This document shows, piece by piece, positions 5,853 to 37,280 of a DNA stretch of 47,731 nt. The translations under genes and the position numbers were made by a program. Every line of letters starts with the position of its first letter. Position 1 is the first letter of the stretch. The notes below the pieces were generated by a model, which was not told where the DNA came from, ran no database searches, and saw only the letters and a program-made list of their open reading frames with translations. The stretch is from Armatimonadota bacterium. Its GTDB lineage: Bacteria; Armatimonadota; UBA5829. Location: positions 1 to 47,731 of the forward strand of contig JAPLCU010000188.1 in the NCBI GenBank assembly GCA_026392045.1. The letters are read 5' to 3'.

Positions 5853-5950
5853 CTGAACCACTGAGACGCTGAAGGGAATGAGGGAATGACACGGGGATTT
5901 GGGCTTTTATCTGTGTGGTGGGCGGTTTCGGGAAAGGGGTTTCCCGAAAC
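5853..5950. repeat. Dispersed repeat copy 2 and 26-bp palindrome
   Basis: 5855-5902 repeats the sequence seen at positions 1-50. 5925-5950 is the palindrome GTTTCGGGAAA-GGGG-TTTCCCGAAAC (11-bp arms, 4-nt centre). Other full copies of the palindrome are at 13746, 13787, 25562 and 32799. These elements sit just upstream of the first methyltransferase/nuclease island. Confidence 0.9.
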
Positions 5951-6036
5951 AACTAAAACAAATAATAATGCTTGACAAGCAACCCTTGTCCAAGTTAAAG
6001 TATCGGAAGGCTAGCACTTTACAGGAGAAGCGAATT

Positions 6037-7074
6037 ATGCCATCAGTCATAGATTTGTTCTGCGGAATCGGCGGATTGACGCACGGATTCGTAAAAGAGG
6101 GTTTTGACGTAATTGCCGGTATTGATGTTGATGCGTCCTGCAAATATGCTTACGAAGAGAATAATAAAGCAGAGTTCATCCTCGAAGATGTTCATGAGTT
6201 TACTGCCGAGGATGTAAATGCACTCTACCCCAAAGATGATTTGAAGATACTTGTCGGTTGCGCGCCCTGCCAACCCTTTTCCCGCTATACGAACCGCAAG
6301 ACAGAAGATAAAAAATGGCAATTGGTAGGTGCATTTGCTAAACTTATAAGCGAAGCCCAACCGGATATTGTATCAATGGAGAATGTCCCAGAACTTGCCA
6401 AGCATTCTGTTTTTCAGGATTTCCTCCACACCCTAGACACCCTCGGTTACAAAAAATCGTGGAGCTTAGTCGAATGCGTGGATTATGGGATACCTCAAAC
6501 CCGCACGCGTTTAGTGCTGTTTGCATCAAAACTGGGACCAATCGAGATTATTAAGCCGACTCATTCACGCTCGAAATGGCGAACGGTTCGACAGGTAATA
6601 AGAAACCTTGAGCCACTCAGTGCTGGTGAATTCAGCAAGAAAGACCCAATTCACTGCGCGAGTGCGCTAACTGAGCTCAATATGAGACGTATAATGGCTA
6701 CCCCTGAAGGCGGGAGCTGGAAAGATTGGGATGAAGAACTAATTCTTGATTGCCACAAAAAGGAGACGGGGAAAAGCTATCCAAGCGTATACGGCAGAAT
6801 GAAATGGGATGATCCGGCTCCTACAATGACTACCCAATGCAATGGGCTTGGCAACGGACGCTATGGACATCCCGAGCAAAATCGTGCGATTTCGCTTAGA
6901 GAAGCAGCGCTTATACAAACTTTTCCCAAGAGCTATCGCTTTATTGAACCTGGGAAAAAAGTAGTAATCAAGCACCTTGCAAGGCATATAGGAAACGCTG
7001 TCCCCGTAAGGCTTGGACAGATAATTGCAAAAAGCATCAAAAAGCATCTGGAGACGTATAATGGCATGTTATGA
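6037..7074 (+). CDS. DNA (cytosine-5-)-methyltransferase, Dcm-like
   Basis: This 345-residue enzyme transfers a methyl group from S-adenosylmethionine to C5 of cytosine in a short DNA site. It shows motif I (VIDLFCGIGGLTHGF, residues 4-18), the catalytic motif IV GCAPCQPFS with Cys78, motif VI ENV (115-117), motif VIII QTRTRLVLF, a target-recognition region, and motifs IX-X ending in ARHIGNAVP. I chose ATG 6037 because AGGAG lies 9 nt upstream and motif I starts at once. The longer open frame to 5899 only reads through a palindromic repeat. It overlaps the GHKL gene by 14 nt, so it is the first gene of a three-gene operon. The target site cannot be read from the sequence. Confidence 0.95.
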   Translation: MPSVIDLFCGIGGLTHGFVKEGFDVIAGIDVDASCKYAYEENNKAEFILEDVHEFTAEDVNALYPKDDLKILVGCAPCQPFSRYTNRKTEDKKWQLVGAFAKLISEAQPDIVSMENVPELAKHSVFQDFLHTLDTLGYKKSWSLVECVDYGIPQTRTRLVLFASKLGPIEIIKPTHSRSKWRTVRQVIRNLEPLSAGEFSKKDPIHCASALTELNMRRIMATPEGGSWKDWDEELILDCHKKETGKSYPSVYGRMKWDDPAPTMTTQCNGLGNGRYGHPEQNRAISLREAALIQTFPKSYRFIEPGKKVVIKHLARHIGNAVPVRLGQIIAKSIKKHLETYNGML

Positions 7075-9055
7075 ACTAAAAGTTGATCTGAATGCACTGA
7101 ATCACCTCGGCATCGGCCTTTATAGCAATATACCGGCAGTAGTATCAGAGGTCGTCGCTAACTCCTATGATGCAGATGCTACTGAGGTTGATATTCTTAT
7201 AGACCAGGTCAATAAAACAGTATCCATACAGGACAACGGCTGTGGCATGACAGAAGATGACATAAACAAGAAATACTTGACTGTAGGATATGATAAACGT
7301 AAGAATGAGCCCGGACTGACGCCGCGTGGTCGAAGTCCAATGGGGCGTAAAGGGATTGGTAAGCTATCACTGTTTTCCATAGCAGATGTCATTGAAGTTC
7401 ACAGTGTGAAGAGAAATGCAGAAGCCGATATTCTGGAGAAGAATGGGTTCATCATGGATGTCAGCGGTATCAAACAATGCATCGAAGATGGCCAAACATA
7501 TAGACCATCACCAGTTGATGCGAAAATGATTACCATAAACAAAGGAACCCGGATCACTCTGCGCAATCTGCGTCATGGAATGGCCACAACAGAAGGTTTC
7601 TTAAGAAAGCGTTTGGCTAGGCGTTTTAGTGTAATAGGCACAGAACACGACTTCAATGTGCAGGTTAATAAGCAGCCAATAGACATTCGAGACAGAGACT
7701 ACTTCATGAAGATTGAGTACATTTGGTACTTAGGTAATGAAAGCAATAATTACGCTGATCTATGCTCCAATAAAAAACATGCAGAACAAATTAGTGGCAT
7801 TATAGATTCAGGCAAGGGATATTTGGTAACGGGGTGGGTTGGAACGTTCGATGAACAGAAAAGCATTGATGATGACAATAACACAATTGTAATCATGGCG
7901 CGCGGGAAACTCATACATGAGGACATCCTCAAGGACATAAAAGAAGGCGGTGTCTTCTCGAAGTATCTTATAGGAGAAATCCACGCCGACTTTTTAGACA
8001 TGGATGAGAGAGAAGATATTGCAACGAGCAACAGACAAAGCCTTAGGGAAGACGACGAACGTTTTCAAGCACTGAAAAAATTCATTCAAGGAAACATTCT
8101 TAAAGAAATACAGAAAGTATGGCGCGAGTGGCGTGTGAAAGATGCAGAAAAGAAAGCCAAGGAGAACCCCAAAATCAAGGAATGGTTTGAAAGCCTGCCG
8201 AAAGACCACAAGAAGTATGCTCGGGATTTGTTTGAACGAATTGAATCGTATCCCATTGCCCACAAGGGTGCAAAGGCTGAGCTTTATAGGAATGCAATTG
8301 TGGCTTTTCAAACGCTTGCAATGCGAAATTCCTTGACAGCATTGGATAAAATACAATCCCAAGCCGACTTAGAGGCATATATTAGTATCTTTGATGACTT
8401 GAGGTGGATTGAAGAGGTGCACTATTATGACATTGTTCGGGCTAGGCTAGATGTGTTGGAGAAGTTCGAGAATATTGTTGATGCCAATGCCAAGGAAAAG
8501 GTCTTGCAAGATCACATCTATAAGTCCCTTTGGCTGCTTGATCCGTCTTGGGAGCGTGCGACGACTGACAAAAGAATAGAGGAGAAGGTAACAACTGAGT
8601 TTGGTAAAATTAGTGCAGGGCTCACGAAGGAAGAGGCGAATGGGCGAGTCGACATTCGTTATAAAACTGCATACGGGAAACATGTTATCATTGAACTTAA
8701 GAAATACGGATACAAAGTAAATGCTCATGACCTAGCTAAACAAGTAGGAAAGTACAATTCGGCGTTAAAAAAGTGCCTTGCGGAAAGGTTTCCGGGTGTT
8801 CCACAAGTTATTGAATGCATTTGCATCATTGGAGAAAAACCGCAACCACACGATGATCCCGAAAAGGTCACTAGAATTCTTCGGGCAGAAGATGCACGTT
8901 TCGTAACATATGATGGATTGATTCAGCAGACACAAGATAACTACCGGCAATACTTAGAGGTCAGCGAAAAGATGTCGAAGTTCCGTGACTTGGTTGATAG
9001 CATAAGTGCCGTGGATGACCAGAATTCAGATAGCGATGGACAAATTATCGTCTAA
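7061..9055 (+). CDS. MORC/paraMORC-like GHKL ATPase with C-terminal PD-(D/E)XK-like nuclease domain
   Basis: A 664-residue protein. The N-terminus is a Bergerat-fold ATPase: N-box SEVVANSYDADA (Glu30, Asn34, Asp37), G1 box DNGCGM (58-63) and G2 box GRKGIGKLS. This resembles Hsp90/MutL/MORC rather than histidine kinases, as there is no phosphoacceptor His domain. An S5-like middle region and a helical region follow. Near the C-terminus VDIRY (Asp531) and IIELKK (Glu545, Lys547) form a D...ExK pattern typical of restriction-endonuclease folds. GGAGA precedes ATG 7061, inside the methyltransferase gene. Prokaryotic MORC and paraMORC proteins are known from restriction-modification neighbourhoods. 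I infer an ATP-driven DNA-sensing nuclease partnered with the methyltransferase and Vsr. Confidence 0.8.
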   Translation: MACYELKVDLNALNHLGIGLYSNIPAVVSEVVANSYDADATEVDILIDQVNKTVSIQDNGCGMTEDDINKKYLTVGYDKRKNEPGLTPRGRSPMGRKGIGKLSLFSIADVIEVHSVKRNAEADILEKNGFIMDVSGIKQCIEDGQTYRPSPVDAKMITINKGTRITLRNLRHGMATTEGFLRKRLARRFSVIGTEHDFNVQVNKQPIDIRDRDYFMKIEYIWYLGNESNNYADLCSNKKHAEQISGIIDSGKGYLVTGWVGTFDEQKSIDDDNNTIVIMARGKLIHEDILKDIKEGGVFSKYLIGEIHADFLDMDEREDIATSNRQSLREDDERFQALKKFIQGNILKEIQKVWREWRVKDAEKKAKENPKIKEWFESLPKDHKKYARDLFERIESYPIAHKGAKAELYRNAIVAFQTLAMRNSLTALDKIQSQADLEAYISIFDDLRWIEEVHYYDIVRARLDVLEKFENIVDANAKEKVLQDHIYKSLWLLDPSWERATTDKRIEEKVTTEFGKISAGLTKEEANGRVDIRYKTAYGKHVIIELKKYGYKVNAHDLAKQVGKYNSALKKCLAERFPGVPQVIECICIIGEKPQPHDDPEKVTRILRAEDARFVTYDGLIQQTQDNYRQYLEVSEKMSKFRDLVDSISAVDDQNSDSDGQIIV

Positions 9056-9500
9056 ACAACGCAGCTGGCTAATGTCGCGTGTGAAAGGAAAAGACACAGT
9101 ACCCGAAAAAGTTGTCAGATCGCTTCTGCACAACCTCGGTTATCGCTTCCGCTTACACAGAAAAGATTTGCCCGGCAGCCCTGATATGGTGCTTCCCAAA
9201 TATAACACAGCCATATTTGTGCATGGTTGTTTTTGGCACAGGCATAAAGGTTGTCCAAAGACTACCATGCCAACAGCTAATTATGAATACTGGGAAAAGA
9301 AGTTTTCAGAAAACATAGATCGTGACACACGAAAAGAGCGAGAACTAAGGCAGCTTGGATGGCGTATTATCATTGTGTGGCAATGCGAAACTGCTACAAA
9401 GCGACTTGGATTACTCGCGGATCGTCTGAAAGCAGAGCTAAAGCTGGAACAAGTTTCCCGAAACACCGAACAAAGTTCCAATCTGAAACCTATCACCTAA
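9036..9500 (+). CDS. vsr: Vsr-family DNA mismatch endonuclease
   Basis: A 154-residue protein. In the family, Vsr nicks 5' to the T of T:G mismatches formed when 5-methylcytosine deaminates. The match is clear: DKLSSKQRSWLMSRVKGKDT, then PGSPDMV with the catalytic Asp50, and VHGCFWHRHKGC with the two His and the zinc-binding Cys region, followed by WEKKF. It overlaps the GHKL gene by 20 nt (start at ATG 9036; no strong ribosome binding site, so translational coupling is likely). The last 15 or so residues are encoded by a palindrome half-site and by ACCTATC heptamers, so the native C-terminus has probably been replaced by repeat DNA. Confidence 0.93.
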   Translation: MDKLSSKQRSWLMSRVKGKDTVPEKVVRSLLHNLGYRFRLHRKDLPGSPDMVLPKYNTAIFVHGCFWHRHKGCPKTTMPTANYEYWEKKFSENIDRDTRKERELRQLGWRIIIVWQCETATKRLGLLADRLKAELKLEQVSRNTEQSSNLKPIT

Positions 9501-10401: not shown

Positions 10402-10773
10402 ATGAAAATAACGACGCAAATCCTCAAGATTGCAGCCATTGCGGCAGGTCTGCTTTTAATTGGCCTGATTGTATGCCCGAACCTGCCTGGGCTCGGGAAG
10501 GTAAACCCCAATCAGCTCTTGCTTGAAGCTAAGGCAACTCAGAAGCGCGCCAAGGGCGTAATTTGTCAACTCCCAAAAGACACTTCCGGTTTTACTCCTT
10601 TGGTAGAGGGCAAAGACACAATCGCGGGCCACGAGGCTTGGACGCTTCGCCTGAAGCCTAAAGCAAAGCGTTTACCCTGGAGCCAATACTGGATCGACGA
10701 AAAAACAAAGGCTGTTGTGGCGTTTCGGAAATGGGACGGGCACAACAATATGGTTCGGTCGGGGAAGCTGTAG
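10402..10773 (+). CDS. Small membrane-anchored protein, RseB/LolA-like C-terminus
   Basis: A 123-residue protein with one N-terminal hydrophobic segment (IAAIAAGLLLIGLIV) that could be an uncleaved anchor or a signal peptide. The remainder (AGHEAWTLRLKPKAKRLPWSQYWID and AVVAFRKWDGHN) resembles the beta strands of outer-membrane lipoprotein-sorting/RseB-like domains but covers only part of such a fold. The ATG begins 1 nt after the upstream stop codon. The function is not identified. Confidence 0.65.
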   Translation: MKITTQILKIAAIAAGLLLIGLIVCPNLPGLGKVNPNQLLLEAKATQKRAKGVICQLPKDTSGFTPLVEGKDTIAGHEAWTLRLKPKAKRLPWSQYWIDEKTKAVVAFRKWDGHNNMVRSGKL

Positions 10774-10982
10774 GAACAGGGGACAGGGAATAGGGAATAG
10801 GGAATAGGGAATAGGGAACAGAAGGGAAAGTCTGATATTACAAAGGTGTTTCGTCCTCCCCAAAACCCTCCTCAACCGCCAACCCCCCCAAGGCTCAGCG
10901 GGAGCTTCGCCCTCCCCAACACCTAACCCCCATCACCTAACCCCCAACACCTAACCCACAACACCCATCACCCATCCCCCAT
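10771..10982. repeat. Composite repeat tract: GGGAATA heptamers, 26-bp element, ACACCTA heptamers
   Basis: 10771-10828 holds about eight 7-bp units (GGGAATA/GGGAACA). 10892-10917 is the GGCTCAGCGGGAGC element, and 10918-10982 is a second array (ACACCTA, ACCCCCA, TCACCTA) that also has a 7-bp period. The first array starts inside the stop codon of the preceding gene. No gene is visible from 10774 to 11050. Confidence 0.9.
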
Positions 10983-17335: not shown

Positions 17336-18502
17336 TTACCGATTGCCTTTTGCTTGGTTATGTGTTGTACACAGCATTTGGCAATTCGTAATGTCAGTTA
17401 TACCGCCCTTACTCCATGCAGCTACATGATCAGCGTCCATGTCTTTTAAATTCCAGATTTTTGCTTTATTGGCATCATGCCCAAGAGCACAAAGCGGACA
17501 GTTAGATTCTTTTGCCTTCTCAGCGTTAGTGGTTTGTGCCTTGTATGCCGATATTCTGGTTGCTTCGTCAAAAACGCGGACAACCAGCAATTTTGTATCG
17601 TCAGAGCCGCCGAGAATATATTCAAAAATACCTCTGCGATTTTTGACATACGGATCAGCGTAAAGCTTTTGTACTTCGGCTGATACCTGCGCAGGATTAT
17701 ACGCCTTCGTATGATACGTTTCGTAAAGACGCCCCCACTCAAGCCCGCGCATCTCGCTTTCAACGTCAGTAAATACTCCAGAAACCCAATCAATCACGCT
17801 GTTGAAATATAGTTTTAATTCATTGATATTGTTATCAAAGCGATGATGGCTCATATAGTCGCCGATCTTGCCTTTGCTTACCCAATCCAACGCGCGTTCC
17901 AAAAACTCCTGTCGGTTGGCGCTGCCCGATATATACGCGCTCCATTTTTGAATGTTGGCGTTTTGGCTATTACTAAATTCTTCCTTGCCGAGTGTTACAA
18001 AGGGTCCTGAATACACTGCATTGAGCAACTCTTGAGGTTTAAGTGGAATTCCAGCGATATTGATTGTTTTGAACCATTCTTTAATTTCGCTTTCTGTTCC
18101 TTCACACTCATAAATGAGCAGATTCGTTTCCCATATCTTGGCTTTCTTATCTTGTGCCATACCGCTAAAATACTGCATACCGCTTTCATCTTTGATGGCG
18201 AATTTGCCTGTCACAAACCGACCAAGACTGGTGATGCGCTGCTGTCCATCTAAGACTTCAAGACCGCTCCCATTTACTTTATTAAAATAGATCAATCCTA
18301 TTGGGTACCCTTTGAGGACTGATTCAATGACGGCCATTTCTTTTTTTCCGCCGTCAGACGCATAAATATAATTGCGTTGGTATTCTGGTTGAATAGTCAG
18401 TTTACCAGATAATCCAAACAAACCTTTGCCTTCAAGTTCGTTATAGACAAATCCTTCGCAGATATCTTTGACAGTAAGGTTAGTGTTTAAAAGCGTTTTC
18501 AT
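17336..18502 (-). CDS. DUF262-HNH protein (GmrSD-like nuclease)
   Basis: A 388-residue protein. The N-terminal DUF262 domain (ParB/sulfiredoxin-like NTPase fold, the GmrS half of GmrSD) shows QPEYQRNY (38-45) and DGQQRITSL (85-93). The C-terminal HNH nuclease has CPLC (335-338), DADH with Asp/His around 356-359, and [10 protein letters not shown], a zinc-finger-supported betabetaalpha-metal site. ATG 18502 begins 1 nt after the stop codon of the adenine methyltransferase gene, so the two form an operon. GmrSD enzymes cut modified DNA. The tight pairing with a methyltransferase suggests this one is either restrained by, or directed by, the partner's methylation. A longer frame to 18556 lacks support. 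Confidence 0.9.
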
Positions 18503-18503
18503 A

Positions 18504-19625
18504 TTATTTTTCCATTCTATTGTGTTTAATGAGTAACCGCTTGTAAATATTAACACCGTTTACAGCAACTGACATACTTATAGTATTATCCCAGCCTTCT
18601 GGTCTTCCAAAGTCATAAGAACAGCCAACAATTTCAAACTGCTCAGGATTGTATTTATCTAAAAAAGTAATCGGCACGCCCATTACACCTTTATAGTCAC
18701 TTGGTATTGCATCAGTAAAAGGCACTTCTATTGCCTCGTAATTGTCATATTTACAATATGCTTTTTTACCCTTAATTTCTTTATGCTTGCTATACTTCAA
18801 ATTGTCTTCCATAGTCATAAGCGGCAATGGTTGATGACGACGTCCGTGGTCAAGATTAGTAAGCCACAAGCAATTATTAGTAGCAACAATTCTATCTCCA
18901 TTTTCATCTATTCTAGCTTCTGTTCCGTACAAGTCATAGGCTTCAGGAACAATGAATCCAGAAATCCATCTTCCCATCCCATTGCCAAGCCATGCTTCAT
19001 TGTTTTGAATTTTTTGGAATACTTCTTTATAAGTTATGCAATTAATATTGCCGATAATCAAAAAATATATGTTATAATCAAAAAGTTGTTTGACATACTC
19101 TCGAAACAAACTGAACGGCGGATTTGTTATCACGATGTCGGATTTTTTGAGCAAATTCACACACTCATCACTGCGAAAGTCACCGTCGCCTTCAAGCGGT
19201 GTCCATTCGTTATGTTTGTTTGCCTTTAACTGCATGGCGACATCATTCAAGTTGAACTCGCCGTCGCCGTCTAAGTCGCCCACTTCATTGATAATAAATT
19301 TGTTGGCGGTTATCTTGGGGCGGCCTTTTGATTTCGTGAGAGTCGCGTCATTGCCAAACAAACCTAGTTGCGTATTGGCTACAGGCGAGGGTTTGTAGCT
19401 GGTGGTGATAAGCTGTTTTAATCCAAGATTGTTGAAATTGAGAACGAAATAGCGAAAAAAATTGCTCTCGTAAGGATCGTCGCAGTTGCAGTAAACAACC
19501 TGACCTCGGAATACATCGGGGTCATATTCCAGGTACGCCTCAATCTCTTTCTGAATATCGCTGTATTGGGTATAAAACTCGTCGTTCTTTGCCTGTTTTG
19601 CATTTGTAAGATTGCTGTTTGCCAT
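18504..19625 (-). CDS. Adenine-specific DNA methyltransferase, EcoRI-methylase family
   Basis: A 373-residue protein matching the M.EcoRI family along its length: [19 protein letters not shown], a GDGDFRS segment, and the catalytic motif IV TNPPF (167-171). Such enzymes make N6-methyladenine. A short Asp-rich stretch [12 protein letters not shown] (118-128) looks like an EF-hand loop, but I believe similar sequence occurs in relatives. No strong ribosome binding site precedes ATG 19625. It is the first gene of a two-gene cassette with the DUF262-HNH nuclease, and an IS3 remnant lies 15 nt upstream of its start. The target site is unknown. Confidence 0.92.
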
Positions 19626-25208: not shown

Positions 25209-25289
25209 TATTCATTCCTCCTTGCCCGAGACTCTATCAATGATTTTCCCAAGGAATGAAGAGTGGAAACGCAGACCGAGAGAATGTAG

Positions 25290-25530
25290 GTGTTGGGTGT
25301 TGGGTGTTGGGTGTTGGGTGTTGGGTGTTGGGTGTTGGGTGATGGGTGTTGGGTGATGGGTGTTGGGTGTTGGGTGTTGGAAGTTGGGTGTTGGGTGATG
25401 GGTGATGGGTGTTGGGTGATGGGTGATGGGTGTTGGGTGGTGGGTGTTGGGTGTTGGGAGTTGGGTGTTGGGTGAAGGGAGAAGGGGGTTGGGTGTTGGG
25501 TGTTGGGGAGGGCGAAGCTCCCGCTGAGCC
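25290..25530. repeat. Long heptamer array (GTGTTGG)n with 26-bp element, inverted
   Basis: About 31 units of 7 bp (GTGTTGG, with GTGATGG and GAGTTGG variants) run from 25290 to 25508. The inverted GGCTCAGCGGGAGC element closes it at 25505-25530. This is the complement of the array at 276-375. Because 7 is not a multiple of 3, all reading frames stay open; these ORFs are artefacts. Confidence 0.95.
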
Positions 25531-36939: not shown

Positions 36940-37280
36940 TAGTGGAGAGTGGAAAGTGGAAAGTGGAAAGTGGAAAGCGGAGAGTGGAAAGTGGAAAGCG
37001 GAAAGCGGAGAGCGGAGAGTGGAGAGTGGAGAGCGGAGAGTGGAGAGTGGAAAGCGGAGAGTGGAGAGTGGAGAGCGGAGAGTGGAGAGTGGAGAGTGGA
37101 GAGTGGAGAGCCCGGAAGGGATGATGCGCATCAGTTTTGAATTATGAATTATGAATTATGAATTATGAATTATGCGTTTCCAACTAGAAATGCTGAGCAC
37201 CAAACTCGCCATGCTGAGGCCCCCACTTCGCCATGCTGAGCGCCCACTACGCCATGCTGAGGCTCTCGAAGCATGAGCAG
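36940..37280. repeat. Heptamer arrays (GTGGAGA)n and (AATTATG)n plus CGCCATGCTGAG repeats
   Basis: 36940-37112 contains about 25 units of GTGGAGA/GTGGAAA/GCGGAGA. 37134-37174 has about six units of ATTATGA. 37190-37280 has four spaced copies of a GCCATGCTGAG motif about 25-28 nt apart. No gene is visible in 36936-37352; the ORFs here are products of the 7-bp period. Confidence 0.92.

Follow-up and report, generated by a model that had tools for sequence, protein, structure and literature searches.

A very probable Type II restriction-modification operon of the BbrUII/HgiDII (paraMORC3) family, with an overlapping vsr gene, in an Armatimonadota bacterium

Introduction

The paraMORC3 class of proteins was predicted from sequence by Iyer, Abhiman and Aravind, and was described in 2008 as having a GHKL-S5-RE fold arrangement, an E-D-ExK motif and restriction-modification (R-M) neighbourhoods that contain Dcm and Vsr (PMC2292703). 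The BbrUII/HgiDII systems are represented by HgiDII of Herpetosiphon and BbrUII of Bifidobacterium breve UCC2003. Their methylases, M.HgiDII and M.BbrUII, are both of the m5C type, and M.HgiDII acts on GTCGAC (PMC5867850). B. breve UCC2003 cannot do without its BbrI, BbrII and BbrIII methylases, from which the authors inferred that the partner nucleases are active; nuclease activity had earlier been shown just for BbrIII, and the in vitro activity of BbrII was not demonstrated by these authors (PMC5514069). We have taken the BbrII of that study to be BbrUII. In the literature that we searched, no report on the contribution of the ATPase in the BbrUII/HgiDII enzymes was found.

A GHKL ATPase joined to a nuclease is also present in VcSduA, a GHKL-type (type I-D) Shedu protein (Nat Microbiol 2025), 

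Here we describe a three-gene locus in a 47,731-nt contig of an Armatimonadota bacterium (JAPLCU010000188.1, assembly GCA_026392045.1), hereafter called the window. We consider it very probable that the trio is an ordinary Type II R-M operon of the BbrUII/HgiDII (paraMORC3) family, which was acquired horizontally and has GTCGAC as its probable target. The locus adds a member to an R-M family that already has a name and in which Vsr is optional; it does not constitute a new defence architecture.

Results and discussion

The middle gene matches the BbrUII/HgiDII restriction enzymes over its full length

The trio occupies positions 6037-9500 of the window, where genes for a C5 methylase, a GHKL ATPase-nuclease and Vsr follow one another on the + strand with consecutive overlaps. 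The first gene (6037..7074, +; ATG start, 345 aa) encodes a C5-cytosine DNA methyltransferase, the M subunit, which is M.HgiDII-like. The second (7061..9055, +; ATG start, 664 aa) encodes a Type II restriction enzyme of the BbrUII/HgiDII family having the paraMORC3 architecture, and the third, the V gene (9036..9500, +; ATG start, 154 aa; TIGR00632, PF03852), encodes a Vsr T:G mismatch endonuclease. The methylase and restriction-enzyme genes overlap by 14 nt (7061..7074, +), and the restriction-enzyme and vsr genes by 20 nt (9036..9055, +). These coordinates and overlaps agree with those in the preliminary description of this DNA, where the three genes had been read as one operon. All three are full length and their active-site motifs are intact.

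The methylase matches PF00145 (E 1.4e-64), PADLOC MTase_II (E 2e-93) and TIGR00675 dcm (140 bits against a cut-off of 100.65), and has the PCQPFS, ENV and GNAVP motifs. It is 52% identical to the counterpart that is paired with a homologue of the nuclease in the haloarchaeon Halobaculum.

For the GHKL protein, we observed a match to NF050001, "BbrUII/HgiDII family restriction enzyme", of 744.8 bits against a cut-off of 550 (E 9e-224), which extends over residues 4-648 of the protein and over profile positions 1-659 of 659. The protein also matched PADLOC REase_II (PDLC03419, E 1.3e-101). Because the NF050001 match is full length and well above the cut-off, and because PADLOC assigns the protein to REase_II, we identify the middle gene, at the level of sequence, as the predicted cognate restriction enzyme of the trio methylase. 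It was thought earlier that this ATPase-nuclease, placed between methylase and Vsr, might act as a sensor of unmethylated DNA or mismatches. That role is not retained, since NF050001 names the protein as the restriction enzyme itself. The broader proposal of a restriction system is borne out by the same two matches together with the C5 methylase alongside.

With the paraMORC3 proteins the window protein shares the GHKL ATPase, the middle domain, the C-terminal RE fold with E-D-ExK and the R-M neighbourhood with Dcm and Vsr, and no difference was found. With the BbrUII/HgiDII systems of Herpetosiphon and B. breve it shares the 745-bit full-length enzyme match and an adjoining C5 methylase; relative to these, the window operon adds an overlapping vsr, a gene found near just a minority of the relatives (see below).

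The enzyme joins a GHKL ATPase to a PD-(D/E)XK nuclease domain

The GHKL (Bergerat) ATPase domain was delimited to approximately residues 1-200 (7061..7660, +) by a HATPase_c_3 match (E 2.3e-18), by conserved motifs and by Foldseek. The motifs comprise an N-box (E30/N34), D58-x-G60-x-G62 and G95-x-K97-G98-x-G100-K101. In a 41-member alignment of the family (A3), E30, N34, D58, G60, G62, K97, G98 and G100 are invariant, and K101 is present in 40 members. An AF2 model of the whole protein (mean pLDDT 83, pTM 0.71) gave Foldseek matches to Hsp90/TRAP1 and to MORC2 over ∼450 alignment columns, the likeness to MORC2 (9cdh) being a match at the level of the fold only.

The C-terminal nuclease domain (residues 466-664; 8456..9055, +) was defined from conservation, an AF2 model and Foldseek. 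In alignment A3, E479 is conserved in 39/41 members, D531 in 40/41, E545 in 39/41 and K547 in 36/41, and these four residues correspond in the aligned sequences to the E-D-ExK signature reported for paraMORC3. Glu30 and the D...ExK residues had been named in the preliminary description and are upheld by this alignment; E479 had been overlooked. Membership of the paraMORC group of Iyer, Abhiman and Aravind, also proposed there, is supported by the combination of the GHKL domain with an RE-fold nuclease carrying E-D-ExK.

When modelled alone, the C-terminal domain (AF2, pLDDT 87.7) showed a helix-strand-strand-helix-strand core. Its best Foldseek matches among solved structures were EndoMS/NucS (5gke, E 6e-4) and Shedu SduA (8ps5, E 1e-3), followed by FokI, EcoO109I and BstEII; these E-values are weak and the fold is consistent. 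The model thus gives the domain a PD-(D/E)XK nuclease fold, similar to those of EndoMS/NucS and Shedu SduA. Structure prediction of the C-terminus had been proposed as a check of the suspected nuclease tail; the fold is recovered in the model, and the tail is supported by residue conservation, the AF2 model and the Foldseek matches.

The resemblance to SduA raises the question of whether the GHKL-nuclease is instead a Shedu-like anti-phage effector, acting independently of methylation as VcSduA would, with the methylase and Vsr as mere neighbours or modulators. The two proteins share the GHKL ATPase, the PD-(D/E)XK nuclease and the catalytic Glu and Lys, proteins of this overall architecture were formerly annotated as paraMORC3 (PMC12137116), and the nuclease domain resembles SduA structurally, as noted above. 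Moreover, the most frequent match of the family's C-terminal domains is Pfam SduA_C, found for 23/37 members at E<=0.1 (best E 8.7e-6). However, the window protein itself scored below the SduA_C cut-off (E 0.0048; 17.5 bits against 27), had no match to PADLOC SduA and is far above the NF050001 cut-off. VcSduA is a single protein with DUF4263 and acts alone (PMC12137116), whereas the window protein, in which DUF4263 is below the cut-off, is paired with a C5 methylase, as are nearly all its relatives. We therefore regard a Shedu-like effector as quite unlikely here and favour the cognate restriction enzyme.

The methylase is a near-constant neighbour of the nuclease, and Vsr an optional one

We collected the loci of relatives from plasmids, phages, genomes and IMG/VR, and clustered the nuclease at 90% identity, which left 71 non-redundant relatives. 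Methylase and Vsr were sought in the fetched flanks by tblastn; as some flanks were short, both counts are lower bounds. A C5 methylase was present in the fetched flank of at least 67 of the 71, and Vsr was near at least 22 of the 71, either upstream or downstream and in either orientation. The relatives having the methylase span archaea, Deinococcus, Rhizobium, Burkholderia, Campylobacter, P2-like phages and IMG/VR contigs. The pair carries the annotations "BbrUII/HgiDII family restriction enzyme" and DNA cytosine methyltransferase in P2-like prophages of E. coli. The order seen in the window, methylase-nuclease-Vsr, is also found in loci L005, L111, L149 and L159, among others, so that the search for the trio in other genomes, which had been suggested as a check, did recover the same gene order. 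The methylase-nuclease pair is hence the conserved unit, and the three-gene arrangement is genuinely recurrent.

NF050001 was above its cut-off also in a Rubrobacter plasmid and in an E. coli phage. On a plasmid of Rubrobacter marinus (L036) there is a homologue of full length (49% identity), and the flanks fetched there contain no C5 methylase; beside it lie genes for a DEAD/DEAH helicase, for a PD-(D/E)XK protein and for a further restriction endonuclease. In two plasmid hits (H51 and H55), close relatives of the C5 methylase lie at or beside a gene for a MAE_28990/MAE_18760 family HEPN-like nuclease, which suggests that the C5 methylase can pair with a different effector.

The vsr product matches PF03852 (E 1.8e-30) and TIGR00632 (144.9 bits against a cut-off of 97.85), and aligns to E. 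coli Vsr (1cw0) with E 3e-28. D50, F66, W67 and H68, which include the catalytic Asp and His, are conserved in 23/23 of the Vsr proteins neighbouring the family. By these profile and residue matches the window Vsr is canonical. As in the Dcm/Vsr very short patch repair system of E. coli K-12, the locus has a C5 methylase and a canonical Vsr with clear homology to 1cw0; the window differs in that the restriction-enzyme gene sits between methylase and vsr.

This position had led to the suggestion that Vsr may be part of the effector. In such a scheme the GHKL protein would recruit Vsr as a second nuclease, in the manner of the cooperation between MutL and Vsr. The overlap of vsr with the nuclease gene is consistent with translational coupling, the order methylase-nuclease-Vsr recurs in the loci named above, and both MutL-Vsr cooperation and Vsr in paraMORC neighbourhoods were discussed by Iyer et al. 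(PMC2292703). Yet Vsr was not found near 49/71 relatives, its position and orientation vary where it does occur, the window Vsr is canonical, and Vsr accompanies C5 methylases that have other partners (PMC6789123; PMC8011034). We consider an effector role for Vsr very unlikely, and the earlier suggestion is not sustained. As the methylase was found near 67/71 relatives and Vsr near just 22/71, we take Vsr to be an optional repair partner and very probably not the effector.

A working scheme for the operon

In the mechanism that we envisage, the C5 methylase would mark the sites of the host's own DNA, probably GTCGAC, and the GHKL-nuclease would bind incoming DNA at unmethylated sites and cut it by means of the PD-(D/E)XK domain at its C-terminus. 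Together, the ATPase and middle domains are likely to make up a dimeric clamp, gated by ATP, that permits cutting; for the window protein, such gating is proposed by analogy. Vsr would nick the T:G mismatches that arise from the deamination of 5-methylcytosine, so that host sites are not lost. A bolder version, to which we give little credence, is an ATP-dependent, clamp-closing Type II enzyme that uses the Vsr of its operon as MutL does, with restriction and deamination repair physically coupled in one complex.

The locus adds one host to the restriction enzymes that join an Hsp90/MutL-like ATPase with a nuclease. The BbrUII/HgiDII family is a good place to ask about ATP-gated Type II enzymes and about their relation to GHKL-type Shedu defence.

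The probable target is GTCGAC

The target-recognition stretch of the window methylase is closely similar to that of the Halobaculum partner. Because of this similarity, in two methylases with 52% identity overall, the sequences suggest a specificity common to members of the family, and the target of the operon is probably GTCGAC, the site of M.HgiDII.

We also considered site avoidance as a support for this assignment and rejected it. In 745 kb of the bacterium's own genome, GTCGAC occurs 103 times against 121.5 expected from a Markov model; the ratio, 0.85, is weak, and the site ranks 31st of 64 palindromes. It is thus slightly under-represented without strong avoidance, and the genome gives no support to GTCGAC. 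The weak avoidance fits either a recent acquisition or a different site; a recently acquired R-M system would also show little site avoidance (PMC4687349). The absence of strong avoidance of the presumed site would also fit a degraded or inactive R-M remnant. Against this, none of the three genes is truncated and all keep their active-site motifs intact, and we hold a remnant to be highly improbable.

The operon was acquired horizontally

NF050001 was above the cut-off in 3/291 genomes of the phylum, namely the genome of the window and two others; the other searched genomes of the same taxonomic family had no copy above the cut-off. Weak NF050001 matches in 269/291 genomes were not counted, and only the three above the cut-off were taken. 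These weak matches are mostly short and fall on profile positions 22-65, as expected for the N-box of the MutL ATPase. A single-sequence search of the genome contigs gave just one partial, weak match, and that of the viral sequences gave none.

The trio genes have a GC content of 42-45%, lower than the 49.5% of the genome. In a genome of the same taxonomic family (G243), the order of permease, ABC transporter and SAM-methyltransferase genes is kept and the trio is absent; ∼790 bp separate the ABC transporter and SAM-methyltransferase genes there, against 4.1 kb in the window. The intergenic DNA of the two is too divergent for the exact insertion boundary to be resolved. The patchy distribution, the lower GC content and the syntenic relative without the trio together support horizontal transfer.

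Horizontal movement had been proposed earlier from the repeats flanking the locus. The movement itself stands on the distribution, the GC content and G243; the repeats are dispersed genome-wide and were set aside as evidence. Units of GGGAATA, CCCAACA and GTTTCCCGAAAC recur elsewhere in the window and in other contigs, and the segment enclosed by the GGGAATA pair contains a gene that relatives have as well. Tandem repeats of 7 bases with several units are seen at 274-373, 10773-10974, 25289-25507 and 36941-37110, and occur at many places in the window and the genome. A dispersed, hairpin-like GTTTCGGGAAA...TTTCCCGAAAC repeat lies just upstream of the trio (5926-5956), and half a copy of it lies inside the 3' end of vsr (9453-9470). 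The core TTTCCCGAAAC is also present elsewhere in the window and in 11/60 other sampled stretches.

Other R-M-like genes in the same genome

The window contains a second apparent Type II R-M pair at 17336-19625 on the - strand, also with overlapping genes. It consists of an EcoRI-type adenine methyltransferase (PF13651, E 6e-125) and a partner with a GmrSD_N/DUF262 domain (PADLOC REase_II PDLC03418, E 4e-80). This pair lies ∼8 kb from the trio, which points to a small cluster of defence genes.

On another contig of the same genome (C24, ∼39 kb), a gene at L002:1417-3318 encodes a GHKL protein that resembles a histidine-kinase fusion, with two Bergerat-like regions recognised by eye. This gene directly overlaps one for an adenine-type DNA methyltransferase (PADLOC MTase_II), and the GHKL protein is possibly a member of the HEF_HK/RR-like group described in PMC8011034.
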